Below are positions 34,679 through 52,522 of a stretch of DNA of 64,000 nt, one piece after another. Source of the DNA: Candidatus Macondimonas diazotrophica (GTDB taxonomy: Bacteria; Pseudomonadota; Gammaproteobacteria; UBA5335); the NCBI RefSeq assembly GCF_004684205.1, contig NZ_SRIO01000008.1, forward strand, positions 1-64,000. Direction: 5' to 3'. The notes under the pieces were generated by a model. It ran no database searches. It worked only from the letters and a program-made list of their open reading frames with translations, and was not told the DNA's origin. The position numbers and the translations under genes are program-made. Numbering within the stretch: position 1 is the first letter of the stretch; every line of letters starts with the position of its first letter.

Positions 34679-36484
34679 CTAGAAGTGGTAGCTCAGCCGG
34701 CTCAGAAAGACACTGCTGTCGCCGGTGGTTCCGAGCACATGTGTCTTGTTCTCTGGTGGACCGAATATCTTCTTGGTGTTGTTCTGGAAGAACAGATCCG
34801 CCTCAAAGGCCAGACGCCAATGGTCGCCGAAGACGAACGTAACCGCCGGGATCAGAAAGGCATCCGCCCCGTTGAGATTCACCCCGCCCGCCAAGGAGGG
34901 AAGAATCGTGTCGTAGCGGTAGTTGAGCAGCAACGAAGCGGTCAGGAATACGGTATGCTCATCCCGCCCCTGCCCATAAGACAGCACCTCGACAATGTCA
35001 TCATCTTCGTCGTAGTCGACGATCCATTGGTCGATCAGCTGAATCGTCGCCAGCGAGCCTCGATCGGTCCCCAACCAGCGCATCAGGTCAAAGGTCTTGT
35101 CGGCGCCGATCATATAGGTAACGGTATCTTTTTCGATTACACCGGCCAGACCGGGCACATCGATGGTCCCCCAACCAAGCGGAATAGCGCCGGCAACCGG
35201 CAGTTGCGGCATGTAGGTGGGAATCGTGATCGGCACTTCGGTGCCATAGTTCCATGGGCGATTCGGCTGGTAGAGAAATTCCCCTCGCAGGACCGCATCC
35301 GCAAACATCCAATAGTAGTTAAAGGTCCCGCCGTAATTGGACTGCCGAGCGTAGATCAACTCCCCTCCCAGACCATCACCTTCAGGAACTTCCTTGTAGG
35401 GTTGGCAGGCCGGATTGATATCGACGGCGAACGGTACCGTGGTTCCCTGAACGGTGCTGCCAGCATCCAACGTTCTACGACAATTTGCGATCGGGTCCTG
35501 GATCAACCCGCGATAGAACAGCAGTGAATAACCCACGTCACCGAACGTGCCGCTCCACCGAAACCCATACTCATCGTCATCCACATCTCCCGCTGCGCCG
35601 TGGTAGTTATAGGGCGCGATGTTTTCCGTAATGTTCACACCCCAGTTGGGCTGACCTGCGTAACGGCCGCCCGCCAGGTCCAATTCGTTGCCGTAGTTTT
35701 CGGAACCATCGATCCCCCCCGGTTTGTAAATGAGTTGCAGATTGCCCGCGAGCTCCGGGACCTCGACGATCAGGTTAGCCAGAGTAGACGGCTTGCGCAG
35801 TTCCTCGTTCTCCAGTTCGAAGAATGATCGCCAGCGCTGATCGTAGCCATGCACGATATCGGTGATGCGGAAAAAATCTGTTTCCCCCCAGACGACCTGC
35901 TGGCGCCCTAGACGAAGAAATAGGCGGTTCACACCGGTGAAATCGGCATACGCCTCACGCAGAACCAATCCCTCGTCGTAGTAGTCATCGAGGAACTCCC
36001 CCCCCAGATCAGTCTGGATCAATCCGGGCGCGCAGTTGCGCGACGGCAAGGCCCCCTCGCCCTGACAGACCGGCCCCAATGCCGACAGCACAGGAACCGG
36101 CGCACTGGTCGGGGTAGCCTTCACGATGGTCTTTTTCGAAGCCCGCTCGAGTTTCTTCAGATACGGCGTCTTGGTCTCAGTGGCGTATCGCGTACTCACG
36201 AAGGCCCGCACGTTGTCGCCATCGAGCTGAAAGTTCAACAATCCCTGATAGCGATTCATGGACAGCTGGCCCTGCCCGCCGATCTCCTCGCCTTCCACAT
36301 TCTGCGGAACCTTCTTATCCTCGAGGTTGATCGCCGCATGATTTCGTACATACCCACTGACCTCGGCATCCATGCCGAACACTTCGAATGCGGCCACCTC
36401 CTGCGGGCTGTAGGAACCGAAAGCAAAAAGGGCGAGGCCGAGTGGCATGCCGAACATGCCGCGGGTCTGTGTCACTCTGGTCAT
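34679..36484 (-). CDS. DUF1302 family outer-membrane protein
   Basis: The 601-residue exported protein has a signal peptide followed by a long beta-rich sequence with DUF1302 blocks: LREAYADFTGVNRLFLRLG, RQQVVWGETDFFRITDI and a barrel-type C-terminal strand ending LSRLSYHF. Members probably form outer-membrane channels and often occur with DUF1329 proteins in bacteria that handle steroids, terpenes or hydrocarbons. The ATG at 36484 has AGGTGG at good spacing. It is the last gene of the oxygenase/transport cluster and is followed by a terminator. Confidence 0.88.
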   Translation of the reverse strand: MTRVTQTRGMFGMPLGLALFAFGSYSPQEVAAFEVFGMDAEVSGYVRNHAAINLEDKKVPQNVEGEEIGGQGQLSMNRYQGLLNFQLDGDNVRAFVSTRYATETKTPYLKKLERASKKTIVKATPTSAPVPVLSALGPVCQGEGALPSRNCAPGLIQTDLGGEFLDDYYDEGLVLREAYADFTGVNRLFLRLGRQQVVWGETDFFRITDIVHGYDQRWRSFFELENEELRKPSTLANLIVEVPELAGNLQLIYKPGGIDGSENYGNELDLAGGRYAGQPNWGVNITENIAPYNYHGAAGDVDDDEYGFRWSGTFGDVGYSLLFYRGLIQDPIANCRRTLDAGSTVQGTTVPFAVDINPACQPYKEVPEGDGLGGELIYARQSNYGGTFNYYWMFADAVLRGEFLYQPNRPWNYGTEVPITIPTYMPQLPVAGAIPLGWGTIDVPGLAGVIEKDTVTYMIGADKTFDLMRWLGTDRGSLATIQLIDQWIVDYDEDDDIVEVLSYGQGRDEHTVFLTASLLLNYRYDTILPSLAGGVNLNGADAFLIPAVTFVFGDHWRLAFEADLFFQNNTKKIFGPPENKTHVLGTTGDSSVFLSRLSYHF

Positions 36485-36561: not shown

Positions 36562-37122
36562 TCACGGCGGTGGCGGCGGTCCCTCGGGGAATCGAATGAC
36601 CGGCGTATCCACCGGGGCACCCGGCGGCACGTAGGCCGGCGTTGGGTCGCCTGCCGGTCCCAGCGCCTTCACGAACCGATACATGGCGCGCGCATCGGAT
36701 TCGGTGAGGGCGTTGAGCACGAACCATCCCATGGGGGGTCGAGTCACCACGTTCCGGGCATACATCACCCAACCGTCCTCGGTCAGCCCGGAAAAAAACA
36801 ACCGGAGATTGACGGGATAGGTTGTCCCCCAGCCGCCCTGCCAGCCAACGGCGCTACCCGTCAGCCAAGCTGATTCCGGCAGGTCGCCGCCAGCCTCGAC
36901 GTAGCCCGGTGTATGGCATTCGTTGCATCCCCCGACCACGACGAGGTAGCGCCCCCGATCGATTGCTTCGTCAGGCATCCCGCGACCCGGGTTACCTTCG
37001 GCTGCAATGCCCAGCGCTCCCCACATCGCCAACAGGCCGATCGCGGCGCCCACCGAAAGCCAGGGACGCCGCCGCAATGGCTGAGCGCTGCGCGCAAACG
37101 AGAATCCCGCCACCGAGCTCAA
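36562..37122 (-). CDS. Monohaem c-type cytochrome
   Basis: The 186-residue product has a membrane-spanning signal segment (about residues 20-40) and a haem site GGCNECHTPG (C-x2-CH). A probable distal Met lies in RPPMGW, and the C-terminus is Pro-rich. It would act as a periplasmic electron carrier. The TTG at 37122 overlaps the stop of the upstream RidA gene; a GTG at 37113 is the alternative. Its presence beside oxygenases suggests an electron-transfer or alcohol-dehydrogenase partner role, which is not shown. Confidence 0.8.
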   Translation of the reverse strand: MSSVAGFSFARSAQPLRRRPWLSVGAAIGLLAMWGALGIAAEGNPGRGMPDEAIDRGRYLVVVGGCNECHTPGYVEAGGDLPESAWLTGSAVGWQGGWGTTYPVNLRLFFSGLTEDGWVMYARNVVTRPPMGWFVLNALTESDARAMYRFVKALGPAGDPTPAYVPPGAPVDTPVIRFPEGPPPPP

Positions 37123-37532
37123 CCCCCGACGATCGCCAAGGCCTGTACCTCGAGCATCATTCCCGGCACGGCCAGCTTGGTGACGCCGATTGCGGTTGAC
37201 GTCGTTCGGCAGCCCGGCAGAATCTCTCGAAAGTATTGGAAGGCGGTCATGACCCTGCCGGAAAACTCCTCGGCGGTCGGCACGTCGACGAGATAGGCAA
37301 TGATCTGCACGATGTCGGCGTCGGTTCCGCCGGCCTCGGCCAGCACATTTTTCATGTTCTCAAAGGTGGCACGGCATTGCTCCTCGTAAGTCGGCAGCGG
37401 CTCGAACCGATCATTCATACCCGCCTGCCCCGATAGGAAAACCAGATTGTCGGCCTTGATGGCTTCGACGATCCCAAGCTGATCGTAGAGGGGGGCGCTG
37501 TGGGGCATCGTGATGCGAGTCATCTCACTCAT
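37119..37532 (-). CDS. RidA/YjgF family protein (copy 1)
   Basis: The 137-residue protein has the trimeric RidA fold blocks ADNLVFLSGQAGMN, EEQCRATFENMKNVLAEAGG and LVDVPTAEEFSGRVMTAFQYF, then RTTSTAIGVTKLAVPGMMLEVQALA. The Arg that binds keto acids in RidA has an equivalent in GCRTTST. AGGAG precedes the ATG at 37532. RidA proteins deaminate reactive imines; dedicated copies in catabolic operons often act on pathway intermediates. Confidence 0.88.
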   Translation of the reverse strand: MSEMTRITMPHSAPLYDQLGIVEAIKADNLVFLSGQAGMNDRFEPLPTYEEQCRATFENMKNVLAEAGGTDADIVQIIAYLVDVPTAEEFSGRVMTAFQYFREILPGCRTTSTAIGVTKLAVPGMMLEVQALAIVGG

Positions 37533-37567: not shown

Positions 37568-37924
37568 TCAGCCGGGAATCGGCGTTTTGCATTCCGTCAT
37601 CTGCGGACGCCACCATTCAAGCCCGAGGGGAACGTCCGGCTGCTCGTAGATTTCCACGGCAGCTGCGATATCCATGAAACTGCTGGCGAGAAAGAACAGC
37701 GGCAGCAACGATGCCGGAAGCTGTCCCGGAGCGAACTGATTGAGGTGTCCGGTCACCTCATCCATGCGGGGCAGCATGGCATCGTAGAAAGCCTTGAGCT
37801 CCTCTTGGGAACTGGCCATGCGCTGCTGGTAGCGGTCACGGAAGGTCGGCTTGGCCCACTTCTCCAAGTAGGCCTCCAGATCCCCGAAACCCTCAGGAAG
37901 ATCGGTTTTGGCGATGTCGGTCAT
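37568..37924 (-). CDS. Small Rieske-oxygenase-associated protein (copy 1), unknown
   Basis: The 118-residue acidic, probably helical protein has no motif I recognise. It is clearly paralogous to the 115-residue product at 42355-42702: both share LP-x-GF-x-x-LEA, the WAKP segment, RYQ, FAP and an EIYEQPDV/ELYKQPDV stretch near the C-terminus. Each copy directly follows a Rieske oxygenase alpha-subunit gene, here with one base between. It could be a divergent small subunit, assembly factor or chaperone of that oxygenase. GGAGC precedes the ATG at 37924. Confidence 0.75.
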   Translation of the reverse strand: MTDIAKTDLPEGFGDLEAYLEKWAKPTFRDRYQQRMASSQEELKAFYDAMLPRMDEVTGHLNQFAPGQLPASLLPLFFLASSFMDIAAAVEIYEQPDVPLGLEWWRPQMTECKTPIPG

Positions 37925-37925
37925 C

Positions 37926-39155
37926 TCAAGCTCCGTTGGCAAGAAGGTCACGAATGACGTAGTGGGAATGACGCACCACGACCTCCATGTCGCTCAACAC
38001 CATCGAATCGAACGCGCCCGAGCGGAGATTCGACTGGGCCCGTTCCACGGTACTCAGATCTTCCAACGCCACATCGAAGATCATGGCCTTGGTGTGCTCG
38101 AAGCCGATGTAGCCGGCGATACTGGTCGGTTCGAAGGCGTAGACTGTCGCCTCGACGATGGAGGTCTCGGCCGTGACCGGCCAATAACACTGCGTCACCG
38201 ACCACCCATTGGCGGTGTAGAACGAGCAATTGGGGAACAGCAGGTGAATATCGAACGCCCAATCATCACGGCGGTCGGGATTCACGCCTGGGGGGAAATC
38301 GCTCCATCGGGCGCCATGGGCTTGATCGTAGCGATCGCCCTGGATAGGCGCGTAGGTCGCCATCTGCTGGTATTTGAGCTCCAGAGCTGCGGCCGCAGTG
38401 GCTGTCTGACCGGGATTACCGAACATCGAAAGCGACTTGTGCTTGTCGTACAGACGGACCGAATTCAGGTGCCCCCACGGGTTTTCCTTGCTGGTAAAGG
38501 CATCACCCGCCGACTGGCCATGCAGCTGGACCACGTGATAACCCTCCAGAAAGGCATCCATGACCATCTTCCAGTTGGCATTCACTTCGGTGCGGATCTT
38601 CAGCATGGTGGCCATCTGTGGCAGCGGGTAGCCGTCGAACGCGCCGTGCAACTCGCCCAACCATGCCGCCAGGGGCTCCACCGGTTCCGGTGAGAAATTG
38701 ACGAACAGCATGCCCATCCAGCGGTCGACCGGAACGGTTTTCAAGCTGCGCTGATCGCGATCGAGGTTGAAGAATGCAGCCTCATCGGGAACATGTTTCA
38801 GCGCTCCATCCAAGCCGAACGACCAACCGTGGAACGAACACACGAAGCGGTTCTTGTGCCCGCATTCGGTGATTTCCACGCGGTTGGCCCGGTGTGGGCA
38901 GACGTTGTGGAAAGCCTTGATGGATCCATCCTGCTGACGGGCGATGATCAGCGACGCCTTGAGTGGTGGAAAGTATTTCACGACGTAATCGCCAGCCGTC
39001 GGGATGTCGCTTTCGCGAGCGGCAAACAACCAGTTACGGCGAAACACCTTGTCGACTTCCAGCTTGAAGAACTCCTCGTCGTAGTAGGGAAAATAGGGGA
39101 CCGGCTCGGTGTCCAGATTCCCGTAGTTGTGCGTGAAATCAGGGATTGCTGCCAT
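37926..39155 (-). CDS. Rieske aromatic-ring-hydroxylating oxygenase alpha subunit (copy 1)
   Basis: The 409-residue protein has the Rieske [2Fe-2S] ligands Cys86, His88, Cys106 and His109 (VCPHR and VCSFHGW). The mononuclear iron ligands are His207 and His212 in EGYHVVQLH, with an Asp probably supplied by ALEDLSTVE near residue 366. No beta subunit is encoded nearby, so it is likely an alpha-only oxygenase. It needs an electron donor, perhaps the ferredoxin domain fused to the permease at 45937. Its spacing of ligands is identical to that of copy 2. GGAGG precedes the ATG. Confidence 0.92.
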   Translation of the reverse strand: MAAIPDFTHNYGNLDTEPVPYFPYYDEEFFKLEVDKVFRRNWLFAARESDIPTAGDYVVKYFPPLKASLIIARQQDGSIKAFHNVCPHRANRVEITECGHKNRFVCSFHGWSFGLDGALKHVPDEAAFFNLDRDQRSLKTVPVDRWMGMLFVNFSPEPVEPLAAWLGELHGAFDGYPLPQMATMLKIRTEVNANWKMVMDAFLEGYHVVQLHGQSAGDAFTSKENPWGHLNSVRLYDKHKSLSMFGNPGQTATAAAALELKYQQMATYAPIQGDRYDQAHGARWSDFPPGVNPDRRDDWAFDIHLLFPNCSFYTANGWSVTQCYWPVTAETSIVEATVYAFEPTSIAGYIGFEHTKAMIFDVALEDLSTVERAQSNLRSGAFDSMVLSDMEVVVRHSHYVIRDLLANGA

Positions 39156-39203
39156 TACTGTTCCTCCATATTGGGGATGATTCGAGGTGTCATATCCGAG
39201 CCA

Positions 39204-39629
39204 TCAACCGCCCAACGCGCGGCCGATGCACTGGATTTCCAGCAAGAGCCTGGGAATACCGAACATCTGCGCGCCGACTAACGCGCCGGTGGCCGGTGAG
39301 CCGGGGAAGTTCGACTTCCAGCTACCGAAAATCACATCGGATGCCTCGGTGAGTGGAGCCTCCAACAGCCCGGTGTTCACATACACCGTCAACTGGCAGA
39401 CTGCGGACGAATCGCCACCGACAGCCGCATAGGCCGCCTTCAATTGGCTAAACGCACGATCGGCCTGCATTGCCAGCCCGTCCAGGGCGACCAACTGGAC
39501 ATCGATACCGGCTTGGGCGGACACGAATACCCAACGACCGCGCCGACGCGCGTCGACACAGCCCAATGGCTCGAACAGTGGACGCGTATGATCGAACCAG
39601 AAGACCTGGTCCTGGGCTGCGGCCGTCAT
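39204..39629 (-). CDS. RidA/YjgF family protein (copy 2)
   Basis: The 141-residue protein shows RidA-type blocks (GRWVFVSAQAGID, MQADRAFSQLKAAYAAVGGD, VYVNTGLLEAPL and a final PRLLLEIQCIGRA). It is divergent from copy 1 and lacks an obvious catalytic Arg in the usual place. Its ATG overlaps the stop of the StyA-like gene by four bases, so the two are translationally coupled. Confidence 0.8.
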   Translation of the reverse strand: MTAAAQDQVFWFDHTRPLFEPLGCVDARRRGRWVFVSAQAGIDVQLVALDGLAMQADRAFSQLKAAYAAVGGDSSAVCQLTVYVNTGLLEAPLTEASDVIFGSWKSNFPGSPATGALVGAQMFGIPRLLLEIQCIGRALGG

Positions 39630-40918
39630 ACTGCCGCCCCCATGGCGGGTGCCGGTGTGGCGTGATCGGCGATGAACCGCTTCGCCGCCTGCTCATCTTC
39701 GATATACGGCCACGCGCTCGGGGGATACCCGAACCAGCCGACGAACGCCTGGGCAATTGCCGGATCGCGGGTAGCGGCCATCTGAATGCTCATCAGCGCC
39801 TTGTTTGGCGCGTCCTGGAGCAACGTACAGAACCGGAACGCGAATTGACCGTACTGGTCCCAATGCTCATCCCAGACCGACTGCATCCAGTCCGGATCGT
39901 AGGCGGCATCGCCTCGCTCCAGAATGTGACGGACATAGCGATCGGTCATGCGGACCGCATTGTTGCCGCTCTGACCGGCATAGGGATCCTGGATCATGGC
40001 TGCATCGCCCATCCCCCAGACCCATGCGCCATTGTCCAGTTGCTTCACCGGACAGCGCACCATGGGCTCGGTTGGACCATACAACCACGCACCTTCATCG
40101 GGAATGACGGCATCCTCATACAGGAACGCATTGTCCGGAATGAGCTTTTCCGTGGCCTCGCGGGCAAACTCCAAATAGGCGGCCGCGGTCTTCCGATCTC
40201 GACCCGCATCGAACGGCCCGCCGGGAACCGTGCTCTGGAAAGCGAAGCCCCGACAGACACCGGCTGCGGTATAGAACGGCCAGGAAAACACATCGCCGAC
40301 GCCCGGAAGAATGTCGAAACGCAGCGGCGAGAAGGGCACGTCATCCCAAGGCTGGTGGCTCGCAACCCTGGGTCCCACCAGAAATATTGCCGCTGAGGGC
40401 AAAGGGGGAAGGTGGTGCGTACTGCGTTCCTCGTCCTTGTCGAAGATCTGGCTGAGCGGTCCCCGGCCGGTCACCACCAGCGTCAGATCGCTTGCCGCAG
40501 CGATCTCTTCTAGATCCGTCACGGCGATATCTCGAACGACGAGCTTTCCACCACGTCGCTCCCACTCATCCATCCAGGTGGAAAACTTCAGACGATAGTC
40601 GACACCCAGGGCGTAGAGCCCGTCGGGGAATCTTCCGGTCAGGCGGAACAAGTCCTTGCCGGATCCACCGGGATCCTTGATGTGCATATCGAAGCCTTCG
40701 GCCCGTGCATCGACATCCTCCCAGAAATTGATACCCAGGCTCGATTCGCGCTCGAGCACCCAGCGAAAGGGCGCCGCCATGCTGAGCATGCGTCCATTGC
40801 GCAGCTGCTCGGCTGTGCGATTGGTGTAGACGGTGACCTCATAATCCCCGGCCTGCTGAAGCGAAAAGGCTGCATGGAAACCCGCCAATCCGCCGCCGAT
40901 GATGGCGATCTTGCGCAT
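39626..40918 (-). CDS. StyA-like FAD-dependent monooxygenase (copy 1)
   Basis: The 430-residue flavoprotein starts MRKIAIIGGGLAGFHAAF with the G-x-G-x-x-G FAD loop at residues 8-13. The middle region matches the styrene monooxygenase substrate-binding layout (SLGINFWEDVDARAEGFDMH), and GMGDAAMIQDPYAGQSGNNA is the second FAD motif. StyA enzymes epoxidise or hydroxylate using FADH2 delivered by a separate flavin reductase, and such a reductase is encoded at 45422. The ATG at 40918 has GGGAGA upstream; the frame runs on for 110 codons without a credible start. Confidence 0.88.
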   Translation of the reverse strand: MRKIAIIGGGLAGFHAAFSLQQAGDYEVTVYTNRTAEQLRNGRMLSMAAPFRWVLERESSLGINFWEDVDARAEGFDMHIKDPGGSGKDLFRLTGRFPDGLYALGVDYRLKFSTWMDEWERRGGKLVVRDIAVTDLEEIAAASDLTLVVTGRGPLSQIFDKDEERSTHHLPPLPSAAIFLVGPRVASHQPWDDVPFSPLRFDILPGVGDVFSWPFYTAAGVCRGFAFQSTVPGGPFDAGRDRKTAAAYLEFAREATEKLIPDNAFLYEDAVIPDEGAWLYGPTEPMVRCPVKQLDNGAWVWGMGDAAMIQDPYAGQSGNNAVRMTDRYVRHILERGDAAYDPDWMQSVWDEHWDQYGQFAFRFCTLLQDAPNKALMSIQMAATRDPAIAQAFVGWFGYPPSAWPYIEDEQAAKRFIADHATPAPAMGAAV

Positions 40919-40952
40919 GATGATTCTCCCTGGTTGGTGAGAGCCAGCCGCA

Positions 40953-42257
40953 CTACTGCAGTAGCCGGCTAAGGGCACCTGGCGTGTAGTCAGCTGGTGA
41001 AGCCGGATAATCAGCGGTGTAATGGCCGCGAGATGAAGGCGCGACCGTGGCGTGGTTGCGCTGAAGGTCGATGACACGCACCGGACTGGGTGCATAGACC
41101 AGGCGATTGGTGGTGTTGGTGCGGTAGGTATAGAGACCCTGATCCATGGTTCGCCACAACTGCCCGCGGCGGTCATACGCCTCGAACACGTAGGGCAGCG
41201 ACATGTAGGCGTTCTCCGCCTCGAAGTAGTAGGTTTTCTTGCTCGCAAGGTGGTCGTCGGGCATGGTCATCTCGACGACCCACACCTGACGCGGCTCGTA
41301 GGTGTCGTCAAAGTCCCAATACGGCGCAGTAGAGAGTTTCACGCCATAGTGCTTGTCCGGATCCTTGGCGGACTCGTCCATTCCCGGATTGGTGCTGTGG
41401 GCAACTGCCAAGATCCAGCGCTTGCCAATGACCTTGATATCCTTGTACCAGCGTGGGTCGGCATTCAGGCCGGTCTGCTCGTCACCCAGAAGATCCGTGC
41501 CGCCCAGGGGATCTTTCCAGGCTCCACCGGACAACCGGCGAACCCGGCGCACCGCCTTGATGTAGCCGTAGCTGTCCGGCAACGCGCCGTCATCCTTCAT
41601 CATCGAGAGGATGCCCACGCCCTTGGCATCGGTCGGATAGGTAATGATCATCATCGATGCCTGACGCAGATCGTCGCTGAGCTCATGCGGCTCGGAGAGC
41701 CGGCCCTTCAGAAGCATCTTGGAAACCGTTGCATGAAGTTCTTTCTGCAGCCCACTCTTGGCGTCGATGCTGAGCAGCACCATGGGATCGAACTTGCCGA
41801 CATCGCCCATCCAGGGCGTATACATGAAGTTGTAAACCAGCTTCACGCCAGCCAAGGGATCTTCTTCACGAATGTCCGGGAACGGCACGCCCGTCACGAA
41901 GCCTTCGACGTCCAAGGTCTGTGGATCGATGGTCACCGAACCGGAATGTTTCTCGGTCGCCGCCTTGAGCGCTGGATCGATCTCGATCGGCTTGGCGTGC
42001 GCCAGCTTCATGGTGATCCCGTAGTCACGGATCAGCTGCTGCTGGACCGGCGTCAGAAGGTCTTTCAAAGGCTTGCCCTCGAAGGTGTCGGTGAGCAACG
42101 AATCAAGATTGGCTGCCGACAGCACCGTCCCTTCGGCGATCTCGGCCTCTGCCACCGGCGATACGCCCAACATGATCAGCGCCGCCAGCCCAGCCGGGGC
42201 GAGACACCTTTTGTTAACAAACGTAACTAGTTTTAATAAAGTAACACTAATGGACAT
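40953..42257 (-). CDS. DUF1329 family exported protein
   Basis: The 434-residue protein has a signal peptide ending near PVAEAEIAEG and a body with DUF1329 features: RRVRRLSGGAWKDPLGGTDLL, ILAVAHSTNPGM and the RQVWVVEMTM region. The fold is predicted to be LolA/LolB-like, which would suit periplasmic binding of lipid-like molecules; this is from family knowledge, not seen directly. The ATG at 42257 follows AGGGGAT. It partners the DUF1302 protein of the same cluster. Confidence 0.87.
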   Translation of the reverse strand: MSISVTLLKLVTFVNKRCLAPAGLAALIMLGVSPVAEAEIAEGTVLSAANLDSLLTDTFEGKPLKDLLTPVQQQLIRDYGITMKLAHAKPIEIDPALKAATEKHSGSVTIDPQTLDVEGFVTGVPFPDIREEDPLAGVKLVYNFMYTPWMGDVGKFDPMVLLSIDAKSGLQKELHATVSKMLLKGRLSEPHELSDDLRQASMMIITYPTDAKGVGILSMMKDDGALPDSYGYIKAVRRVRRLSGGAWKDPLGGTDLLGDEQTGLNADPRWYKDIKVIGKRWILAVAHSTNPGMDESAKDPDKHYGVKLSTAPYWDFDDTYEPRQVWVVEMTMPDDHLASKKTYYFEAENAYMSLPYVFEAYDRRGQLWRTMDQGLYTYRTNTTNRLVYAPSPVRVIDLQRNHATVAPSSRGHYTADYPASPADYTPGALSRLLQ

Positions 42258-42354
42258 GACGATCCCCTGTGTGAGAGATGCGATAGCGTCTGCACCGGGA
42301 TGGGTCTGCCGTCGCAAACCTGATCCGGTCGATACCTACTGCGATACGGCCGGG

Positions 42355-42702
42355 TTAGCCGCCGATGCCGATCCGGTCGATAAGCGCCACCCGATGGGCC
42401 TCAAAGCCCAGCCAGACATCGGGCTGCTTGTAGAGCTCGACGGCCGGTGACACGTTCATGGCCGCATAGGTCAGGTAAAGCAGTCGTCGGCTGGCATCCG
42501 GGAGATCATCGGTTGGCGCAAAACCGTCAAAGTGCGCCGCACAGCGATCCATTGCCGATATCATCGCTTGATAGAAGGTCTGTATCTCATCCATGGTACT
42601 GGTGATGCGCACCTGGTAGCGTGCCGCGAATGAGGGCTTGGCCCATCGCTCGGCAAACGCCTCCAGTTCCTCGAACCCTGCAGGCAACAGTTTCTTGTTC
42701 AC
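42355..42702 (-). CDS. Small Rieske-oxygenase-associated protein (copy 2), unknown
   Basis: The 115-residue protein is a paralogue of the product at 37568-37924 and shares LPAGFEELEAF, WAKPSF and VELYKQPDVWLGF with it. A GTG at 42702 is the start, with GGAGG six bases upstream; the frame is open for 62 further codons inside the oxygenase gene, which I regard as chance. It lies 14 bases after the second Rieske alpha gene. Function unknown. Confidence 0.75.
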   Translation of the reverse strand: MNKKLLPAGFEELEAFAERWAKPSFAARYQVRITSTMDEIQTFYQAMISAMDRCAAHFDGFAPTDDLPDASRRLLYLTYAAMNVSPAVELYKQPDVWLGFEAHRVALIDRIGIGG

Positions 42703-42716
42703 GAGTGGCCTCCGCC

Positions 42717-43916
42717 TTACCGATTGATGATCTGATCGACGATGTGGTGTCCATGCCGGACCAGCACTTCCTGATCGCTGAGATACATCTCGTTGACCGC
42801 GCCGGACTTGAGCATCCCTTGTGTACGCTCCACCGTGCTGAGATCTTCCAAGGCCACGTCGAACAGCTGCGTCTTGGCATGTTCCCAACCGATCAACCCC
42901 TTGGTGTCCGTCGGCTCAAACATGTACATGTGCGACTCGTAGATGCTCTTGTCCGGCGCGATCGGCCAGTACATCTGGCGAAGGAACCAGCCATTCGAGG
43001 TGTAGAAGGAGAAATTGGGGAAGACCAGCGTGGAATCGAAGGCCCAGTCGCTCCGGCCGTCGGGATTGACGCCAGGTACTTTTTCCAGGGCCTGCGCGGA
43101 ATGCGCCGGCGTATAGGACGGGCCAAACACGAACTTCAGCGCCAGCGCCTGAGCCGGCGTCGGAATCTGCTCGGGATTCCCATAGATCGACATGCTGCGA
43201 TGCGGTCCGAGCAGACGAACCGAATTCAGATGTCCGTTGGGGTTGGCGTCACTGTTGAACGCATTGGGTGCCGAACGTGCATGCAGCTCCAACACATGAT
43301 AGGCCTCCATGTAGGCATCCATGAGCAGCTTCCAGTTCGCATTCACTTCGGCGCGCAGGGTCAGAACGCATTTCATCCCCTCGTGCGGAAACCCGTCGAA
43401 CATGTGCTCCAGCGACCCAAGATGCTCGCGCAGGGATTGCGCCGGCTTCGGATCCACATTGATGAACACGAATCCTTGCCATGTATCCAGCGCAACTTCT
43501 CGCAGACACATTTTCGCCTTGTCCAGGCCATGAAATGAACCTTCGTCCGGCACGTGTCGCAACTGGCCATCATTGTCATAGGCCCATCCATGAAAACCAC
43601 AGACGAACCGACTGACGTTGCCCTGCGGATGAACGGCAACCTTGTTGCCGCGATGCAGACACATATTGTGGAAGGCGCGCAGCTGGTTCTGTCGATTGCG
43701 CGTGATAATGATCGACGTATCGCAGATCGGCAGGTCCTGCACGAAGTAATCGCCGGGATTCGGCGCCTGATCCTCGCGCCCGACGCATAGCCAGCTCTTC
43801 TTGAAGATCATCTCTTTCTCGCGCTGAAAGACCGATTCACTGTGATAGTTCTCCAGCGGAACCAGTCCTGTTCCCAGCGCTGCTGTGGCGGGATCAAACG
43901 GTGTTGCTACGGCCAT
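42717..43916 (-). CDS. Rieske aromatic-ring-hydroxylating oxygenase alpha subunit (copy 2)
   Basis: The 399-residue protein has Rieske ligands Cys86, His88, Cys106 and His109 (MCLHRG and VCGFHGW). Mononuclear-iron ligands His207 and His212 lie in EAYHVLELH, and ALEDLSTVERTQ is the probable Asp segment. Ligand positions are identical to copy 1, which points to duplication. The ATG at 43916 has AGGAG seven bases upstream; upstream in-frame codons lie inside the StyA-like gene. No beta-subunit gene is present. Confidence 0.92.
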   Translation of the reverse strand: MAVATPFDPATAALGTGLVPLENYHSESVFQREKEMIFKKSWLCVGREDQAPNPGDYFVQDLPICDTSIIITRNRQNQLRAFHNMCLHRGNKVAVHPQGNVSRFVCGFHGWAYDNDGQLRHVPDEGSFHGLDKAKMCLREVALDTWQGFVFINVDPKPAQSLREHLGSLEHMFDGFPHEGMKCVLTLRAEVNANWKLLMDAYMEAYHVLELHARSAPNAFNSDANPNGHLNSVRLLGPHRSMSIYGNPEQIPTPAQALALKFVFGPSYTPAHSAQALEKVPGVNPDGRSDWAFDSTLVFPNFSFYTSNGWFLRQMYWPIAPDKSIYESHMYMFEPTDTKGLIGWEHAKTQLFDVALEDLSTVERTQGMLKSGAVNEMYLSDQEVLVRHGHHIVDQIINR

Positions 43917-43938
43917 TGGCTTGCTCCTGAGATTTGTT

Positions 43939-45234
43939 CTAGACGGCTTGACGAATTTCGGCTGCAGCGGAACTGGTCTGTCGCGCGCTTTCGACAAAAC
44001 GCTTGGCATCCTCCACTGATCGCAGCCACGGAACCATGGTCTTGGGATCGGTAAAGGCTGTGGCGAAGGCATCTGCAACGCGCTGGTCAACACCTGCGGC
44101 CTGCAGAATCACCATCAGCGGCGGCCCTGGGTCTTTCAGCAAGCGGTTGGTGAACTCGATGGGGTATTGACCGTAGTCGTTCCAGTAGTCCTCGAACGTC
44201 TGCTCCATCCAGCCAGCACCAGCAGTCTGCGCCCCGAGATCAACGAGCTCTTCGGCAACCCGATGGACCATCCGAATGCCATTGTTCGCTCCCTGACCTG
44301 CCAATGGATCGGTCAACATCACCACATCGCCCAATCCCATGACGGGATGGCCGGAACGCGTATACCCAACGGGCTTGCGGATGGTCGGCGTCAACGCCCC
44401 TGCGACCCAACCGCCTGGCTCGCACAGAGTCGCCTGGGAAAACTCGGGCACGTCACCCGGCAGAAACTTGCGCATCAGATCAAGACCGACCTGCAGCAGC
44501 TCATCCCCGGACTGCGCACCCGTGAACTGATCAAACGGGGAACCCGGAATCGCCTCGAATGCCATACCGCGACAAGGCACGCCAGGCTTACCGAACATCG
44601 GAATCGAGAACACATCGCCGACTCCGAAGATGGTGTGCAGGCGCAGATGGGGGAAACCCACATCGGGCCAGGCGTGCTGGCCGGTAATGCTCTCCCCCTC
44701 CAACATCAGCACCCCCATATGACGCGCTGGCCGGTCGAACTCGCTGCGCACATCATCGCGTTCGAACAGCTTGCTCATAACACCCTTGCCGACCGCCACG
44801 AAGGTGACGTCGTATTCCTGGGCGATGGCGTCCAGCCGGACCTCATCGATATTCTCGATCCGCAGATCCCCACCCCGTGCGACAAACTCTTGCATCCACC
44901 GTGGAATACGGATTCGGTAGTCCACACCCTGGGCAGTCACCCCATCGCGAAATGCGGCTGTGATCGACGCGACAGTCTCGCCAGTCGGCAAATGCGCCTC
45001 CAGGTGGATTCCCATGCCGCGAGGCGTCACGTCATCCCAGAAATTCAGCCCGAGTTCTTGCTCCTTTTGCTGGACGTAGGAAAAGAATGCCGCCGTATTG
45101 GATAGCTTTCCTTCACCGTAAGCCTCGGGCGTCCGGTCAGAGAACAGAGTGATCTTGCCGACTCCAGCCCTGAGCAGAGCGAATCCCAAATGCAGACCGA
45201 CCGGGCCGGCGCCGATGATGGCGATTGACTTCAT
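43939..45234 (-). CDS. StyA-like FAD-dependent monooxygenase (copy 2)
   Basis: The 431-residue flavoprotein has IIGAGPVGLHLGFALL for FAD, LGLNFWDDVTPRGMGIHLEA in the StyA-type substrate domain and GLGDVVMLTDPLAGQGANNG as the second FAD motif. It is a paralogue of the product at 39626-40918. GGAGG lies nine bases before the ATG. It opens the second StyA-Rieske-small-protein module and has an AT-rich upstream gap of 187 bases, so a promoter is likely there. Confidence 0.88.
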   Translation of the reverse strand: MKSIAIIGAGPVGLHLGFALLRAGVGKITLFSDRTPEAYGEGKLSNTAAFFSYVQQKEQELGLNFWDDVTPRGMGIHLEAHLPTGETVASITAAFRDGVTAQGVDYRIRIPRWMQEFVARGGDLRIENIDEVRLDAIAQEYDVTFVAVGKGVMSKLFERDDVRSEFDRPARHMGVLMLEGESITGQHAWPDVGFPHLRLHTIFGVGDVFSIPMFGKPGVPCRGMAFEAIPGSPFDQFTGAQSGDELLQVGLDLMRKFLPGDVPEFSQATLCEPGGWVAGALTPTIRKPVGYTRSGHPVMGLGDVVMLTDPLAGQGANNGIRMVHRVAEELVDLGAQTAGAGWMEQTFEDYWNDYGQYPIEFTNRLLKDPGPPLMVILQAAGVDQRVADAFATAFTDPKTMVPWLRSVEDAKRFVESARQTSSAAAEIRQAV

Positions 45235-45421: not shown

Positions 45422-45940
45422 TCATGCACACTGGTGCCCCAGATAGGTGTCCGAGTAGATCGCACCTCGATAGAACAGCAATGGCGAACGCTGCTGCTGC
45501 CATGAGTAGCCGACAACCTTGCCGATCACGATCGCATGGTCGCCACACGGGACAGCCTCCATCCGCTCGCATTCAAAAGCGGCCACCGCACCGTGAATAA
45601 GCGGGACCCCGGTTTCGCCCGCCTCCACCGGAATGCCGCGGAATTTGTCTTCGCGAGGCGTCGCGAACTGGTGGCATACCGCTTCCTGATCGTGAGCGAG
45701 AATGCTGACGCCGAAGTACCGAGCATCAACGAAATTCGCATGGTTGGGCGATTGGTTGCGAATACACCAGGACAGTGCCGGGGGGCTCATCGAGACCGAC
45801 GAGATGGAATTCACGGTGATTCCGATCATTCGGCCTTCCGGTGTACAGGCGCTCACAATGGCAATGCCCGTCGCGAAACAGCCGAATGCATTTCGCATGT
45901 CCCGTGGATCAATCTCCAATGTCAGCGGGGTCTGGCTCAT
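45422..45940 (-). CDS. Flavin reductase (StyB/HpaC-like)
   Basis: The 172-residue flavin-reductase-domain protein has RNAFGCFATGIAIVSA, GITVNSISSVSMSPPALSWCI, HANFVDARYFGVSILAHDQE and the C-terminal HAIVIGKVVGY block with the conserved His. It supplies reduced flavin from NAD(P)H to two-component monooxygenases such as the StyA-like proteins downstream. Its ATG overlaps the stop of the permease-ferredoxin gene by four bases, so the three redox parts are coupled. Confidence 0.9.
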   Translation of the reverse strand: MSQTPLTLEIDPRDMRNAFGCFATGIAIVSACTPEGRMIGITVNSISSVSMSPPALSWCIRNQSPNHANFVDARYFGVSILAHDQEAVCHQFATPREDKFRGIPVEAGETGVPLIHGAVAAFECERMEAVPCGDHAIVIGKVVGYSWQQQRSPLLFYRGAIYSDTYLGHQCA

Positions 45941-48759
45941 GATGCAGCTCGCATGGGGGCCGACGCAGGCGCGCCAGCAGGTTGAGGGGAAAGGGAGATG
46001 AAGAGCGCATCACCCTGCTGAATCACGTCATAGCGCCGGAGTGGAAGTTTGACCGGCGGCGCGACAGGCAGCCCTGTCCGGACATCGAACCGGCCGCCAT
46101 GCCAAGGGCACTCCACGTGTCCGGTTGCGGGATCGTAGTCTCCTTCCGAAAGCGACGCTGTACCGTGGGTGCACAGGTCGTCGACGACGTGGAAGCCCTC
46201 TTCTGTGCGGAACACGGCGACGCGATGCCCGTCGCTCAGATCGATGGGTTTACCCGCGGCGATCGGCACTGCTTCCACGGCACACAAGGGCTGAAGGGCG
46301 GGCCGTCCCAAACGGGACGACAAGCGAGACCGAACCGCCTCCCACAACGGACGCAATGTCCCCGCTCCCGGGGTGCGCCGGCGCGAGCAGTCGGCACATG
46401 CGTTTCGGGCCAGCGGTTCCGCTGCGCCGGCAAAGATGAAGTCAGGCTGAAATACCAATGCCAGCGCGGGGATGACCGTGAGGGCAGCCGTTGCGGCAAC
46501 CGCCATCCACAGTGCAATGAGCACACCCATCTCCGCCTGGAAACGCAATGCCGACAACTGCCACAACGACACGCTGACGATAATGGTGCTGCCCGTAATC
46601 ACCACACCCTTGCCGGCGGTCTGCAGTGCCTCACGAACGGCCGCAGCAATATCCGCGTTCCGCCGATGGGCTTCCCGGATGCGATCGACGATATAGAACC
46701 CGAAATCCACACCCATCCCGATTCCGAGCGTAATGACGGGCAATGTGTTGATCGTCAGTCCGATATTTTGCGAGGCCATGTAGGCGAAGGTCACCGCATT
46801 GGACAACACGACGCCCGGCAGAAAGAACAAACCGGCCTGCCAGGACAAGCCATAGCTGAGCCAGCAGCATGCGAACAGCAACGCCATTGCAAACGCGATC
46901 GTCTCAACCAGATGCGCTGCAATCGTCTCGTTCACCGCCGCCAGAACAGCCGGGAATCCACCCCCGAAGCGAACGGTGGCGGGCAGGTCCGGCGGCAGCT
47001 GTGCGATGGCTTCGTCGACACGCGCCTGCACGGCTCGCAAGGTCGGCCCGCGGTGGTCCCTGAGCTGCAGGTGGATGGCCCCGTCTGCATAGTCCTGGGT
47101 GCGGTACTGAACGAGATCGCCTGGATCCGCCGATTGTTCGAGCATGGCGATCAGCTGACCTGTCGCCTCCCGATCCTCCGGCAGTTCACGATATCGGGGA
47201 TTGCCTTCCCGCAGCGTCATGTTCAGCGGCGCAATCAGATCGGGCAAGGCCAGCGTACCCACGATCTCCGGCTGACGTGCAAGCTCGGACTGGATCCAGC
47301 CGACAGCCTGCAGCACCTTTGGGTCCTTCATCGCATCGGGCGCCTGCCCATCGACCACCAGAAACATCCGCTCCGCTCCGGGAAAGCGCTCATCAATCGC
47401 GGCGACTGCCTCATTGAATGTGGAGTCCGGCCACAACAGCGGCGTCCCCGGAAAGGCATCCCCGATCTGAAGTTCGGTGCTGCGCCAGATCGCCGCGCTG
47501 ACGAGGATTAGCGCCACTGTCAATACCGAGGAGGCACCGAACCGTCCCGTCAGTCGTTGTCCGAGCCAACCCAGAACGAAGTCCAGAGGCCGATGCCAAC
47601 TGCGGTAGTGGTAACTGGGCACCTGAACATCGGCCAGCACCAGCGGAATCAACGCAATGACGGTGATCGCAAGACTGGACAGCCAGATCACCCCAATCAG
47701 GGCGGCACCCTGCAGAATCGGAATGGGTGTGGTCAGCATGATGGCGACGGAACCCACATCTGTCGCCAGGCCTAGCGCGCTCGGGCGAAACAGCTTGACC
47801 AGGGTCTGACGCGCCGCGGTCATGGAATCCAGCTGCTCACGCTCCTCTGCATAGAGCCGACAGAACTGGACCGAATGAGAAACCGACCGGGCCGCCATCA
47901 GAAACGCCAGCACCATCATGAGCGGATCGAGCCGCAATCCCGCCAGTGAAACCGCACCCAGCGCGAAGGTTGCCGACAATCCGGCCGCCAACAGCGGCAA
48001 CACGGTGCCCAGCCACGAGCCCATCGCCCCCCAGAGCAAAGCCACCAACAGCAGGAGGATTGCACCTGCCAGCAGCATGGTCTGCGGGATATAGGTCAGG
48101 GCCAGCGCCTGCAACACCGGCTCACCTACCACATAGGTTTCAATCGCCGGATTGTCGATCGCCCCGATCGCTTCATTCACTGCTTCGTGAATCTCGGCAT
48201 AACTGGTATCACCACGGGCGATGGCGTCGTCAATGAAGCCCACCACGATCAACGCCGCCGTAAGATCCCGCGAAACGAAATTCCCGAGCACGATGTCGTT
48301 GGCCAGCACCCGGTCGCGCAGCTGCGCAACCTCGGTCACACTGGCCGGCGTGCCTGGCCACATCAGCGGCTCGATATCGACTGCGTCACTCGAGGCCGAA
48401 ATATGCCGCAGCTTGCGCGACGCCAGGGACACCACCTGGTAGGGATCAACGGCCGGTACACTCTCGAGACGCCGAGTCAGCGCCGCCAACTCCCGCAACA
48501 CATCGGCGTCGAACAGATCCCCCTCACGCACTCGGAACATGACAACCAGTGAATTGGTCGATCCGAATGTCTGGGCGAATTGCTGATGAACGGAAATCGT
48601 CGAATGATCGAGTGGATAGAGCTGCTCCGGGCCACTGCTAACTTGCAGGCGATTCCACGCAACCACCCCCATCACCATCGCCAGCGTCACGATGCCGAGG
48701 CGAAACACCCGACGCCAGCCAAACAATCCATCCAACACCAGTCGGGCAAGACTGCTCAT
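45937..48759 (-). CDS. RND/MMPL permease fused to a C-terminal Rieske [2Fe-2S] ferredoxin
   Basis: The 940-residue protein reads without a break. Residues 1 to about 780 are an RND/MMPL-type exporter with paired helix bundles and periplasmic loops (LRLDPLMMVLAFLMAARSVSHSVQF and LPVITLGIGMGVDFGFYIVDRI are characteristic). A basic linker of about 40 residues follows. From about residue 825 there is a complete ferredoxin with Cys863, His865, Cys884 and His887 (CTHG and CPWHGG). The ferredoxin would be tethered to the inner membrane, presumably on the cytoplasmic side since it follows the last helix. I know of no common fusion of this kind. GAGGGA precedes the ATG. Confidence 0.88.
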   Translation of the reverse strand: MSSLARLVLDGLFGWRRVFRLGIVTLAMVMGVVAWNRLQVSSGPEQLYPLDHSTISVHQQFAQTFGSTNSLVVMFRVREGDLFDADVLRELAALTRRLESVPAVDPYQVVSLASRKLRHISASSDAVDIEPLMWPGTPASVTEVAQLRDRVLANDIVLGNFVSRDLTAALIVVGFIDDAIARGDTSYAEIHEAVNEAIGAIDNPAIETYVVGEPVLQALALTYIPQTMLLAGAILLLLVALLWGAMGSWLGTVLPLLAAGLSATFALGAVSLAGLRLDPLMMVLAFLMAARSVSHSVQFCRLYAEEREQLDSMTAARQTLVKLFRPSALGLATDVGSVAIMLTTPIPILQGAALIGVIWLSSLAITVIALIPLVLADVQVPSYHYRSWHRPLDFVLGWLGQRLTGRFGASSVLTVALILVSAAIWRSTELQIGDAFPGTPLLWPDSTFNEAVAAIDERFPGAERMFLVVDGQAPDAMKDPKVLQAVGWIQSELARQPEIVGTLALPDLIAPLNMTLREGNPRYRELPEDREATGQLIAMLEQSADPGDLVQYRTQDYADGAIHLQLRDHRGPTLRAVQARVDEAIAQLPPDLPATVRFGGGFPAVLAAVNETIAAHLVETIAFAMALLFACCWLSYGLSWQAGLFFLPGVVLSNAVTFAYMASQNIGLTINTLPVITLGIGMGVDFGFYIVDRIREAHRRNADIAAAVREALQTAGKGVVITGSTIIVSVSLWQLSALRFQAEMGVLIALWMAVAATAALTVIPALALVFQPDFIFAGAAEPLARNACADCSRRRTPGAGTLRPLWEAVRSRLSSRLGRPALQPLCAVEAVPIAAGKPIDLSDGHRVAVFRTEEGFHVVDDLCTHGTASLSEGDYDPATGHVECPWHGGRFDVRTGLPVAPPVKLPLRRYDVIQQGDALFISLSPQPAGAPASAPMRAAS

Positions 48760-48772: not shown

Positions 48773-49843
48773 TTATCGAATCACTGGGGACCGTGCAGCC
48801 ATCTGCTGCCGATCGAATCGAAGCTGCCTTTCACCAGCCGGGGTGTCGGACGACGCTCTTGCCCGCATCGGAAGCGACAACTTCAACGGATGACTCGCAG
48901 TCAATGCCACCAGGTCGCGGCCGCGGAGATCCACATCCAGAACGACATCGGCAGGCGCCAACCGCCCATCCAGCGTTCGCAGGAACGGGTGCGTCCGGTG
49001 ATCCAGCGTGAACAGCTGCCCCAAGGCGCCACCGAGAATTGCCTCCCCTGACTCATCCATGGCCGCGGCGTACAGGGCGGGTGTTGCCGAGTCCACCGGA
49101 ATCCGGGTCCAGTGCTCGCCGCTGTCCTCGGTAGTCAACACGACACCATTCAGCCCGGCGATCACGCCATACGGACCGCGAAAATCCACCGCCATCAATG
49201 ACTCGCTTACCGGCGCAGTGACGGATCGCCACGTGTATCCATCGGGTGAATAGGAGAGTCGGCCGAACTCTCCCACCAACCAGATCCCGTTCTCGGAGAA
49301 GCCGACGTCGTTCCATGCCATGTCTTCCCGCGCAACGACTTGCGTAAAGGATCGGCCTTCGTCACGGCTGACCAATGCAGCGCCCATGACGCCGACGGCC
49401 CACAGTGCCCCGTCCGGGGCTTGGCGAATGCGGACCAGTTTGTTCTCGATATCGGACGAGGGAACGCCGGGCACTGCCTGCCAGGTTTGCCCGGAGTCTT
49501 CTGAACGCAGGATATCGCCGCCGTTGCCGACCGCGACCACGGTGCCATTGCCAAGTGCGACAGCATCCTGAAGATGCTGATGCGTTCCCGTCCATCCGGA
49601 CCGCCAATGCTCACCACCATCATCGCTTATTCGCACTTGCCCATAGGATCCGACAAGCCAGATCTGATCGCTGTTCTCCGGCGAAACGGCAAGACCGTAA
49701 TAACGGTATCGCCCCGCGAATGGCTCATCCACTGGGGGCGTGATGCTGGGCTTGAAGTCCGCGTAGATTCCGGTCAGCAGCAACGCCGACAGAACCGTCA
49801 AACCCACAACGACCCTTGATACGCGGCGTCTCATCATGCTCAT
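48773..49843 (-). CDS. YCF48/photosystem-II-assembly-like beta-propeller protein
   Basis: The 356-residue exported or anchored protein has an N-terminal hydrophobic segment (about residues 10-27). It is followed by repeated BNR/sortilin-like blades with the S-x-D-x-G-x-x-W pattern (SDDGGEHWRS, SEDSGQTWQA, SPDGYTWRS, TEDSGEHWTR). Such proteins recur beside RND, DUF1302 and DUF1329 genes. It begins the minus-strand cluster, 13 bases ahead of the permease gene. Function in this setting is unknown. Confidence 0.85.
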   Translation of the reverse strand: MSMMRRRVSRVVVGLTVLSALLLTGIYADFKPSITPPVDEPFAGRYRYYGLAVSPENSDQIWLVGSYGQVRISDDGGEHWRSGWTGTHQHLQDAVALGNGTVVAVGNGGDILRSEDSGQTWQAVPGVPSSDIENKLVRIRQAPDGALWAVGVMGAALVSRDEGRSFTQVVAREDMAWNDVGFSENGIWLVGEFGRLSYSPDGYTWRSVTAPVSESLMAVDFRGPYGVIAGLNGVVLTTEDSGEHWTRIPVDSATPALYAAAMDESGEAILGGALGQLFTLDHRTHPFLRTLDGRLAPADVVLDVDLRGRDLVALTASHPLKLSLPMRARASSDTPAGERQLRFDRQQMAARSPVIR

Positions 49844-51122: not shown

Positions 51123-51980
51123 TCAGCTAAAAGCCACCTTGTGATCCGTCAGGAATACCTCGATATTGCGAGCCGGCGCCCCCGCAATCGCCGATACGGT
51201 GTCGGCGACATCGCCCAGATAACCCGGCGGCGCAAGCGCGTACAGCTCGACCATGGCATCCGCCAACGGCTCCGGCATGCCCGCATCCAGCATTGCCGCC
51301 TTGGCATCATCGTTTGAGACAGCAACATATCGAATCGGTTTACCCAAACAAGTCGTCATGGCCTGAGCGATCTGCTCCGCTGTCACGGCGGTCGGCCCGG
51401 TCACCGGATACGCCTTGCCTTCATGGCCCGCCCCGGTCAGTGCCGTGACGGCAACCGCAGCGATATCCCGTGCATCGACCCAGGAAATCGGGCTGTTCTC
51501 GCCCAGCGGCAAATAAAACGCACCGTGATCCTTGATGGTGGGTGCCGACATGAAGAAGTTCTGCATGAAGAATGTCGGCTGCACGAAGGTCCAATCCATT
51601 CCGCTCTGCTTGAGCCGTTCCTGGTTCTCGCCATGCCAGCGCCCGAATTGCACCGGCGCATCCGGTGCGGCCCCGATGCCAGTCGACATGACCACATGCT
51701 TCACGCCGGCCTGGGCAGCGGCGTCGATCAAGGTATTGCGCATCGCCACCTGATCCAAGGCCAGTGCCGTAACCAGAAACACCTTGTTTACGCCTTCCAG
51801 TGCCACTGGCAGTGACGCCGGATCTCGCAGGTCGCCCTCGACGACCTCAACATCTTCGCCAAACATCGAGGTTGCCTTGGCCTTGTCCCGGACCAACACC
51901 CGGGTGGCGACGCCCTTCGCTCGCAACAGGCGAACAACCTCGTTTCCGATGTTGCCCGTGGCTCCAACTACCAAAATCAT
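51123..51980 (-). CDS. NmrA-family NAD(P)-binding protein (quinone oxidoreductase QorB-like)
   Basis: The 285-residue Rossmann protein starts MILVVGATGNIGNEVVRLL with the G-x-x-G-x-x-G loop of atypical short-chain dehydrogenases. VLVRDKAKA, FVQPTFFMQNFF and WVDARDIAAVAV are NmrA/QorB-type blocks. The adjacent HxlR regulator and an inverted repeat in its promoter suggest inducible expression under quinone or electrophile stress, as for QorR-controlled quinone reductases. AAGGTGAGG precedes the ATG and partly overlaps the operator. Confidence 0.87.
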   Translation of the reverse strand: MILVVGATGNIGNEVVRLLRAKGVATRVLVRDKAKATSMFGEDVEVVEGDLRDPASLPVALEGVNKVFLVTALALDQVAMRNTLIDAAAQAGVKHVVMSTGIGAAPDAPVQFGRWHGENQERLKQSGMDWTFVQPTFFMQNFFMSAPTIKDHGAFYLPLGENSPISWVDARDIAAVAVTALTGAGHEGKAYPVTGPTAVTAEQIAQAMTTCLGKPIRYVAVSNDDAKAAMLDAGMPEPLADAMVELYALAPPGYLGDVADTVSAIAGAPARNIEVFLTDHKVAFS

Positions 51981-52081: not shown

Positions 52082-52522
52082 TCAGATTCCCTGCAGTCTG
52101 GGCAGGGTGGACCGCACCTCATCTGCCCCGGAAGCCGGCGCGCGACGCGCTGCTTGGTCTTCCGCAAACCACTTATTCGCAAGAGATTCCAGAGGAGTCA
52201 TGACCTGTGCGAGTTCACGCCCCCGCGCAGTCAGCTCGTAACATACATGAGGCGGGATACCCAGGTGCTGCTCACGGCGCACCAGGCCGGCCGCCTCCAG
52301 CCGCCGGAGACGAACGGTCAGCATCCGGGCAGAAATACCGTGCACATCCTTCATGAGCTCCGAGAACCGGATCGAGTCATGCTGCAGCAACACCCATACG
52401 ATATAGGCCGTCCATGGTCCCATGATCAGCGATACCAGTGCGTCGACGGGGCATCCCGACTCGGCGCTGGGCATTGGGGTATGGGGACTGTTCGATGCAT
52501 TCTTCTTGCGATTCCCGGCCAT
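52082..52522 (-). CDS. HxlR-family transcriptional regulator
   Basis: The 146-residue winged-helix protein has the HxlR layout: conserved Cys24 in SGCPVDAL, ISARMLTVRLRRLEAAGLVRR for the recognition helix and wing, then CYELTARGREL. In QorR, YodB and HypR the N-terminal Cys senses quinones or disulfide stress. The ATG at 52522 has AGAGGAGA at good spacing. It lies upstream of and in the same direction as the NmrA-family gene, which it probably controls. Confidence 0.9.
   Translation of the reverse strand: MAGNRKKNASNSPHTPMPSAESGCPVDALVSLIMGPWTAYIVWVLLQHDSIRFSELMKDVHGISARMLTVRLRRLEAAGLVRREQHLGIPPHVCYELTARGRELAQVMTPLESLANKWFAEDQAARRAPASGADEVRSTLPRLQGI

Follow-up and report, generated by a model that had tools for sequence, protein, structure and literature searches.

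Several described systems resemble parts of the locus reported here. Acinetobacter piscicola p38 carries genes for a Rieske alpha subunit (1684), a StyA-like monooxygenase (1687), a flavin reductase (1688) and a ferredoxin (1690); in the portion of the study that describes them, indole and skatole are broken down by 1687 together with 1688, while skatole raises 1684, 1687 and 1690 (PMC11434297). In a 2026 paper this StyA counts as a possible skatole monooxygenase, and the Rhodococcus ska system described there (SkaA, SkaMO) is alike by description, as it combines a group E monooxygenase and a flavin reductase with a multicomponent ring-hydroxylating oxygenase (RHO) (PMC13101512). AmeABCD of Castellaniella defragrans is a monoterpene-tolerance exporter made of DUF1302, DUF1329, COG4447 and RND proteins (PMC6394551). 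CntA is an alpha-only Rieske oxygenase that uses a separate reductase, CntB, and its description, as far as it goes, mentions no small partner (PMC7948474). Here we analyse an island of oxygenase and transport genes in a stretch of 64,000 nucleotides (hereafter the window; positions 1 to 64,000 of contig NZ_SRIO01000008.1) from Candidatus Macondimonas diazotrophica, in which two sets of StyA-like, Rieske and small helical proteins occur together with Ame-type genes and a ferredoxin fused to the pump.

The combination of StyA and Rieske genes, which a reading of the window from sequence alone had taken to be unusual, is already a known kind; the duplicated, pump-linked layout is a new form of it. 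Precedents include an Acinetobacter plasmid from pig faeces (locus L124), with genes for an amidase, Rieske oxygenase, small protein, NTF2-like protein, StyA, flavin reductase, short-chain dehydrogenase/reductase, ferredoxin and reductase, and with catechol genes such as catA and catC nearby. Similar clusters are found in Ideonella benzenivorans (L056) and in a Zoogloeaceae metagenome-assembled genome (MAG; L065). The Rieske, StyA, flavin reductase and ferredoxin genes of L124 are spaced n, n+3, n+4 and n+6, as are 1684, 1687, 1688 and 1690 in the part of the p38 cluster described (PMC11434297), and by this gene order L124 stands in for p38. The window island shares with p38/L124 a StyA of the same clade, a flavin reductase, an alpha Rieske protein with a small partner and a Rieske ferredoxin, but differs in being duplicated and in carrying RidA genes, AmeABCD-type genes and a pump-fused ferredoxin.

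The core of StyA, Rieske and small genes recurs in other genomes, and the full island order in one, G371, which belongs to the same family but another genus and is the only one of the eight nearest genomes examined to hold the island. There, a 20-kb contig (L162) has the same gene order, with AmeA cut by the contig end. The sequence-only reading had set the unit at 37568-45234; both sets do lie there, but the conserved unit is wider, about 34679-52546 (16 genes, approximately 18 kb, all on the minus strand), and includes, besides the two sets, an HxlR regulator, an NmrA-type dehydrogenase, a flavin reductase, a cytochrome-like gene and the transport genes. From the pump gene to AmeA, the intergenic gaps are -4 to 97 bp, with one exception of 187 bp upstream of StyA1. 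Identities between the window and G371 range from 52% (YCF48) to 90% (Rieske1), and the ratio of non-synonymous to synonymous substitution (dN/dS) is 0.06-0.27 for 15 genes, a rough estimate because dS is high. RpiA flanks the island in the window, whereas its G371 homologue (56% identical) is on another contig and the upstream neighbours of the island differ; the island must hence have moved or been transferred in the past.

As first read, the two sets have the same order and strand (45234-42355 and 40918-37568, both minus): StyA1-Rieske1-small1 in set 1 and StyA2-RidA1-Rieske2-small2 in set 2, separated by the DUF1329 gene. The copies are 35% (StyA; 417 amino acids, E 1e-93), 48% (Rieske; 405 amino acids, E 2e-140) and 44% (small; 107 amino acids, E 3e-31) identical, far above chance, and we therefore reject chance resemblance. 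Both Rieske proteins have the marks of alpha subunits, namely Rieske and Ring_hydroxyl_A domains, CxH/CxxH motifs and a 2-His-1-Asp site. The ligands proposed for them, C86/H88/C106/H109 for the cluster and H207/H212 for the iron, are confirmed at the same positions in both copies and, with the bridging Glu E204 (E205 in the likewise alpha-only CntA, as described in PMC7948474), are invariant in 18/18 aligned relatives. We read D358 (Rieske1) and D366 (Rieske2) as the third iron ligand. The RidA gene of set 2 is present as the sequence-only reading had it, but it need not be an insertion, as a RidA gene also separates StyA from Rieske in locus L033 of genome G357; a second RidA gene (37532-37119) lies downstream of set 2.

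The Rieske tree, built from 75 proteins, groups Rieske1 and Rieske2 as sisters, each paired with its counterpart from G371 (Shimodaira–Hasegawa-like approximate likelihood ratio test (SH-aLRT) 97), and L033 is the closest relative of the pair (support 88). The L033 row (G357:C89) reads StyA, luciferase-like monooxygenase, RidA, Rieske and small protein, that is, two flavin oxygenases with one Rieske unit. StyA1 and StyA2 are also sisters, with support of 91/92 in a first tree and 88 in a larger one. Two observations tell against this grouping: the tree program flags long branches, and when one copy is left out the other keeps its clade but shifts its place slightly. An origin of the copies from distant families, the outcome under which the idea of a duplicated module was to be abandoned, is nevertheless rejected, with the Rieske proteins sisters and both StyA copies in one 7-row clade. 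The simplest reading of these trees is that the module was duplicated long ago and that the StyA copies are probably sisters; StyA could also have been acquired twice, independently, from the same clade.

The 7-row clade contains StyA1, StyA2 and the enzymes of L124, L056 and L065 (support 97/97; 93 in the larger tree). By membership of this clade, with L124 standing in for the A. piscicola-type StyA and SkaA outside the trees, the window enzymes class as skatole-monooxygenase-like group E enzymes. True styrene monooxygenases (SMOs) are rejected, as StyA1 and StyA2 score 177 and 150 bits with NF045732 against a curated cut-off of 550 and fall outside the SMO clade; iif-type indole monooxygenases (IMOs) are rejected because StyA1 and StyA2 form part of a separate clade (support 100). 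An 11-row StyA clade (SH-aLRT 100), to which StyA1, StyA2 and the enzyme of L124 belong, holds all eight StyA genes that are linked to a small–Rieske pair, compared with 0/33 linked outside it; three of the eight came from Rieske or small-protein searches, the genome loci span about 1.5 kb on each side in this neighbour count, and 13 of 54 StyA-bearing plasmid records were examined.

From this gene content, kinship and conservation, we tentatively favour the view that the island serves to oxidize, at the membrane and in two steps, a compound that is hydrophobic and probably N-heteroaromatic (indole-like). The flavin reductase would supply FADH2 to both StyA copies, which would epoxidize or hydroxylate the substrate as the first oxygenation. 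A Rid protein (RidA2) may then hydrolyse an imine that arises from the substrate, and the Rieske oxygenase would oxidize the product further with electrons from the pump-fused ferredoxin, assisted by the small four-helix protein as a dedicated partner of the alpha subunit (a further subunit, a stabilizer or a docking factor). The Ame-type proteins could carry the hydrophobic compound, as substrate or as product, through the cell envelope. Probably the two sets either have different substrates or act one after the other.

It is quite possible, if somewhat doubtful, that the module instead oxidizes a nitrogen-free hydrophobic hydrocarbon (of terpene, polycyclic aromatic hydrocarbon (PAH) or sterol type), with the StyA copies as epoxidases and the Rieske enzymes as mono- or dioxygenases. 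The idea of two oxidation steps on a hydrophobic substrate fits the AmeABCD-type genes, but for the terpene, steroid or polycyclic compound proposed with it the nearest characterized chemistry is N-heteroaromatic instead: the closest StyA clusters with published activity act on indole and skatole, in the results given for p38 (PMC11434297). Two Rid proteins are present, and Pfam recognized no terpene or sterol catabolic gene in the island. Other evidence weighs against the reading that we favour. AmeABCD was demonstrated for the export of monoterpenes, in the account available for Castellaniella (PMC6394551). At the positions of the SMO 'N-TVAHH' and IMO 'S-SQCMF' stretch the window enzymes have N-TAAFF and S-MAAPF, unlike both, so the substrate is a guess, and the Acinetobacter enzyme (S-TTMFF) differs from them too. 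RidA1 lacks the Arg that RidA2 has at an aligned position, which we take to be the usual RidA active-site residue; RidA1 of G371 has this Arg, as do the RidA2 proteins of both genomes. Compared with p38/L124, the island has neither an NTF2-like gene nor an amidase (an FmdA/AmdA amidase is encoded on another contig of the same genome, and the island does have the NmrA-type dehydrogenase), and its Rieske copies fall in another Rieske subclade than those of ska-type clusters. The intradiol catechol dioxygenase family PF00775 has no match in the genome (extradiol enzymes were not searched), which means that the organism does not just reproduce the catechol route as published.

A hydrocarbon substrate would also suit the distribution of related small genes. 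These are multiplied in family f151, with 8, 8 and 12 copies in genomes G150, G262 and G357, most of the checked copies adjoining a Rieske gene. This family looks like Immundisolibacteraceae because the Rieske protein of an Immundisolibacter MAG clusters with G262 and G150 copies, and I. cernigliae, from a PAH-contaminated site, is credited with 21 RHO variants in the section of the source that covers it (PMC9535955). As the active-site residues and cluster content differ from those of indole and skatole clusters, terpenes, steroids and PAHs stay candidate substrates beside the indole-like compound that we favour.

The small protein family is the most general result and deserves a name; plasmid records label its members hypothetical. 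Neither small1 nor small2 has a Pfam or NCBIfam match, and 17 family members gave no convincing Pfam match (weak hits only, best E 0.045). A classical NTF2-like beta subunit is rejected by the lack of any SnoaL match in small1, small2 or the 17 members, and no island gene has the SnoaL or Ring_hydroxyl_B Pfam match expected of an alpha3beta3 type. A sequence search of the PDB with the family gave a best E of 0.29. AlphaFold2 models small2 as four helices (predicted local distance difference test (pLDDT) 90.5; predicted template modelling score (pTM) 0.80), a model with no Foldseek match at the E <= 0.001 threshold (the best had E 4.1) and no VIA-align Z reaching 5 in 45 chains compared, neither of which proves a new fold. 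Conserved residues of the small protein are F13, W23, R31, R35, F46, Y47 and E91.

We scanned 84,980 public genomes for Rieske genes and analysed the best 80 of 590 loci, in a ranking that favours likeness to small-linked Rieske proteins, as the alignments used (A1/A2) were built from small-linked pairs. In these loci 95/96 small genes lie no more than 300 bp from a Rieske gene on the same strand, and the remaining one is a single gene removed from it. Conversely, a small gene adjoins 92/102 Rieske hits of at least 330 bits; for hits below 330 bits, counted apart, the figure is 4/20 (two in L102, and one each in L044 and L049), and we interpret these four as members of that family that are fragmentary or truncated by a contig end. 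The first 20 loci (L003-L022) of the 33 small-gene places found agree: in 16 a Rieske match of more than 60 bits lies no further than 300 bp away, in three a single gene intervenes, and L013 has a degenerate frame. Hosts, judged by the titles and tree labels of the 80 loci and the tree, include Pseudomonadota, Actinomycetota, Binatia, Myxococcota and Nitrospinota. A mirror-tree comparison, restricted to 112 pairs by removing those with repeated sequences, gave r 0.84 between small-protein and Rieske distances, and swapping partners within genomes lowered r in 1000/1000 trials (mean 0.76, maximum 0.81). The tree of the small proteins themselves is poorly resolved. We infer that this conserved four-helix protein acts as the partner of one Rieske clade.

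We consider it rather unlikely that the small protein, instead of being a subunit, is a regulator or a chaperone for folding or cluster loading whose gene simply stays next to that of its Rieske protein. Such a role would sit well with a high-confidence helical model that has no significant PDB match, and with the 10/102 high-scoring Rieske genes that have no adjacent small copy, of which at least L098 and L110 are near contig ends. However, the presence of nearly one small copy per Rieske gene, even at 8-12 copies per genome, and the pair-specific coevolution both speak more for a specific physical partner than for a chaperone of general use. The classes of Rieske oxygenases rest on alpha and beta subunits and redox partners, and the small protein may be a missing component when alpha-only enzymes are assayed.

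The ferredoxin of the island is the C-terminal part of the RND protein (940 amino acids; MMPL and ACR_tran matches). This fusion is no assembly error, as it is intact in G371 (944 amino acids; 74% identity over residues 6-939, no stop), where the ferredoxin part with its CTH and CPWH motifs is strongly conserved and the linker is not. A query spanning the pump/ferredoxin junction gave, besides the window's own, no single match across both halves in 398 Pseudomonadota genomes, and a 956-amino-acid frame with a ferredoxin-like match (G549, L190) has no similarity to RND proteins. Related clusters encode a free-standing ferredoxin (annotated as a ferredoxin subunit in L124, and recognized by similarity in others) that matches the RND protein. 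The C terminus of RND proteins faces the cytosol.

By Pfam, and with the components defined as in the part of PMC6394551 that sets them out, all four AmeABCD-type proteins are present: DUF1302, DUF1329, COG4447/YCF48-like and RND together, as in C. defragrans. In contrast to the Castellaniella genes, those of the window interleave with oxygenase genes and the RND protein carries a ferredoxin domain. A second Ame-type locus of the same genome (L193; G000:C14:26000-40000) holds genes for a flavin reductase, acyl-CoA-dehydrogenase-like, luciferase-like, RidA and SnoaL-like proteins and DHBP synthase, among them further presumed flavin oxygenases, which suggests that in this organism Ame transport repeatedly goes together with Rid proteins and oxygenation by flavoenzymes.

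More speculatively, and with considerable doubt, the island could encode a transporter-tethered oxygenase, in which the cytosolic ferredoxin of the pump docks the Rieske enzyme and its four-helix subunit at the point of exit of the hydrophobic substrate from the membrane, so that oxidation is coupled to transport; in addition to alpha and beta, the small protein would then represent a new and general third type of Rieske subunit, found across several phyla. With the pump–ferredoxin fusion, it would become possible to test directly whether hydrophobic compounds are exported and oxidized in a linked manner. It is improbable that the route is one of tailoring or biosynthesis, in which the Ame-type system exports a lipid or alkaloid that the cell makes itself and these enzymes modify: the RND/DUF1302/DUF1329 proteins are indeed described as an exporter in what PMC6394551 reports of them, and the island has no ring-cleavage gene (nor the genome an intradiol dioxygenase, with extradiol enzymes not searched), but the island is without a core biosynthetic gene and the annotated relatives examined sit among catabolic genes, such as catA/catC near the Acinetobacter cluster.

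Table 1. Genes and one domain of the island, with window positions.
Feature	Positions	Strand	Basis
HxlR-family regulator, first island gene	52082..52546	-	Pfam HxlR 3.9e-20; L162 counterpart 4824-5285, 64% identical
NmrA-like short-chain dehydrogenase	51123..51980	-	Pfam NmrA 6.5e-38; L162 counterpart syntenic, 75% identical
AmeC-like periplasmic YCF48/BNR-type protein	48773..49834	-	Pfam PSII_BNR 6.4e-17; syntenic in L162
AmeD-like RND/MMPL transporter with C-terminal Rieske ferredoxin	45937..48759	-	Pfam MMPL 9.4e-29, Rieske 2.4e-12 (residues 823-902)
Ferredoxin domain of RND protein (about residues 815-919)	46003-46317	-	
Flavin reductase	45422..45940	-	Pfam Flavin_Reduct 8.3e-40; sole one of island
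StyA1, group E flavoprotein monooxygenase	43939..45234	-	Pfam Smoa_sbd 4.8e-19, trees
Rieske1, alpha-only Rieske oxygenase	42717..43916	-	Pfam Ring_hydroxyl_A 1.3e-24, Rieske 5.9e-16, ligands
small1, helical Rieske-partner protein, 115 amino acids, probable GTG start	42355..42702	-	44% to small2, family adjacency
AmeB-like periplasmic DUF1329/LolA-like protein	40953..42257	-	Pfam DUF1329 1.8e-45
StyA2, group E flavoprotein monooxygenase	39626..40918	-	Pfam Smoa_sbd 4.5e-15, trees
RidA1, divergent Rid-family protein	39204..39629	-	Pfam Ribonuc_L-PSP 5.9e-7
Rieske2, alpha-only Rieske oxygenase	37926..39155	-	Pfam Ring_hydroxyl_A 4.2e-29; sister of Rieske1
small2, helical Rieske-partner protein, 118 amino acids	37568..37924	-	AlphaFold2 four-helix model; 1 bp from Rieske2
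RidA2, Rid-family protein	37119..37532	-	Pfam Ribonuc_L-PSP 1.3e-16; Arg at usual RidA position
Small one-haem cytochrome c-like protein, CNECH	36562..37122	-	CxxCH also in L162; no Pfam match
AmeA-like outer-membrane DUF1302 protein	34679..36484	-	Pfam DUF1302 3.2e-16; counterpart starts at L162 contig end

Between the NmrA and YCF48-like genes, approximately 1.3 kb (49835-51122) has no gene assigned; the equivalent gap in G371 is about 260 bp. An Rfam search gave 0 matches. Elsewhere in the window, a copper membrane monooxygenase cluster (Monooxygenase_B, AMO and AmoC) lies at 3980-7075 on the minus strand, and a second, lone AmoC/PmoC-like gene at 62354-63217, also minus; judged by these genes, the organism may oxidize methane, ammonia or short hydrocarbons. 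At 14935-17436, on the plus strand, a UDP-glycosyltransferase-like gene adjoins a sulfotransferase gene.

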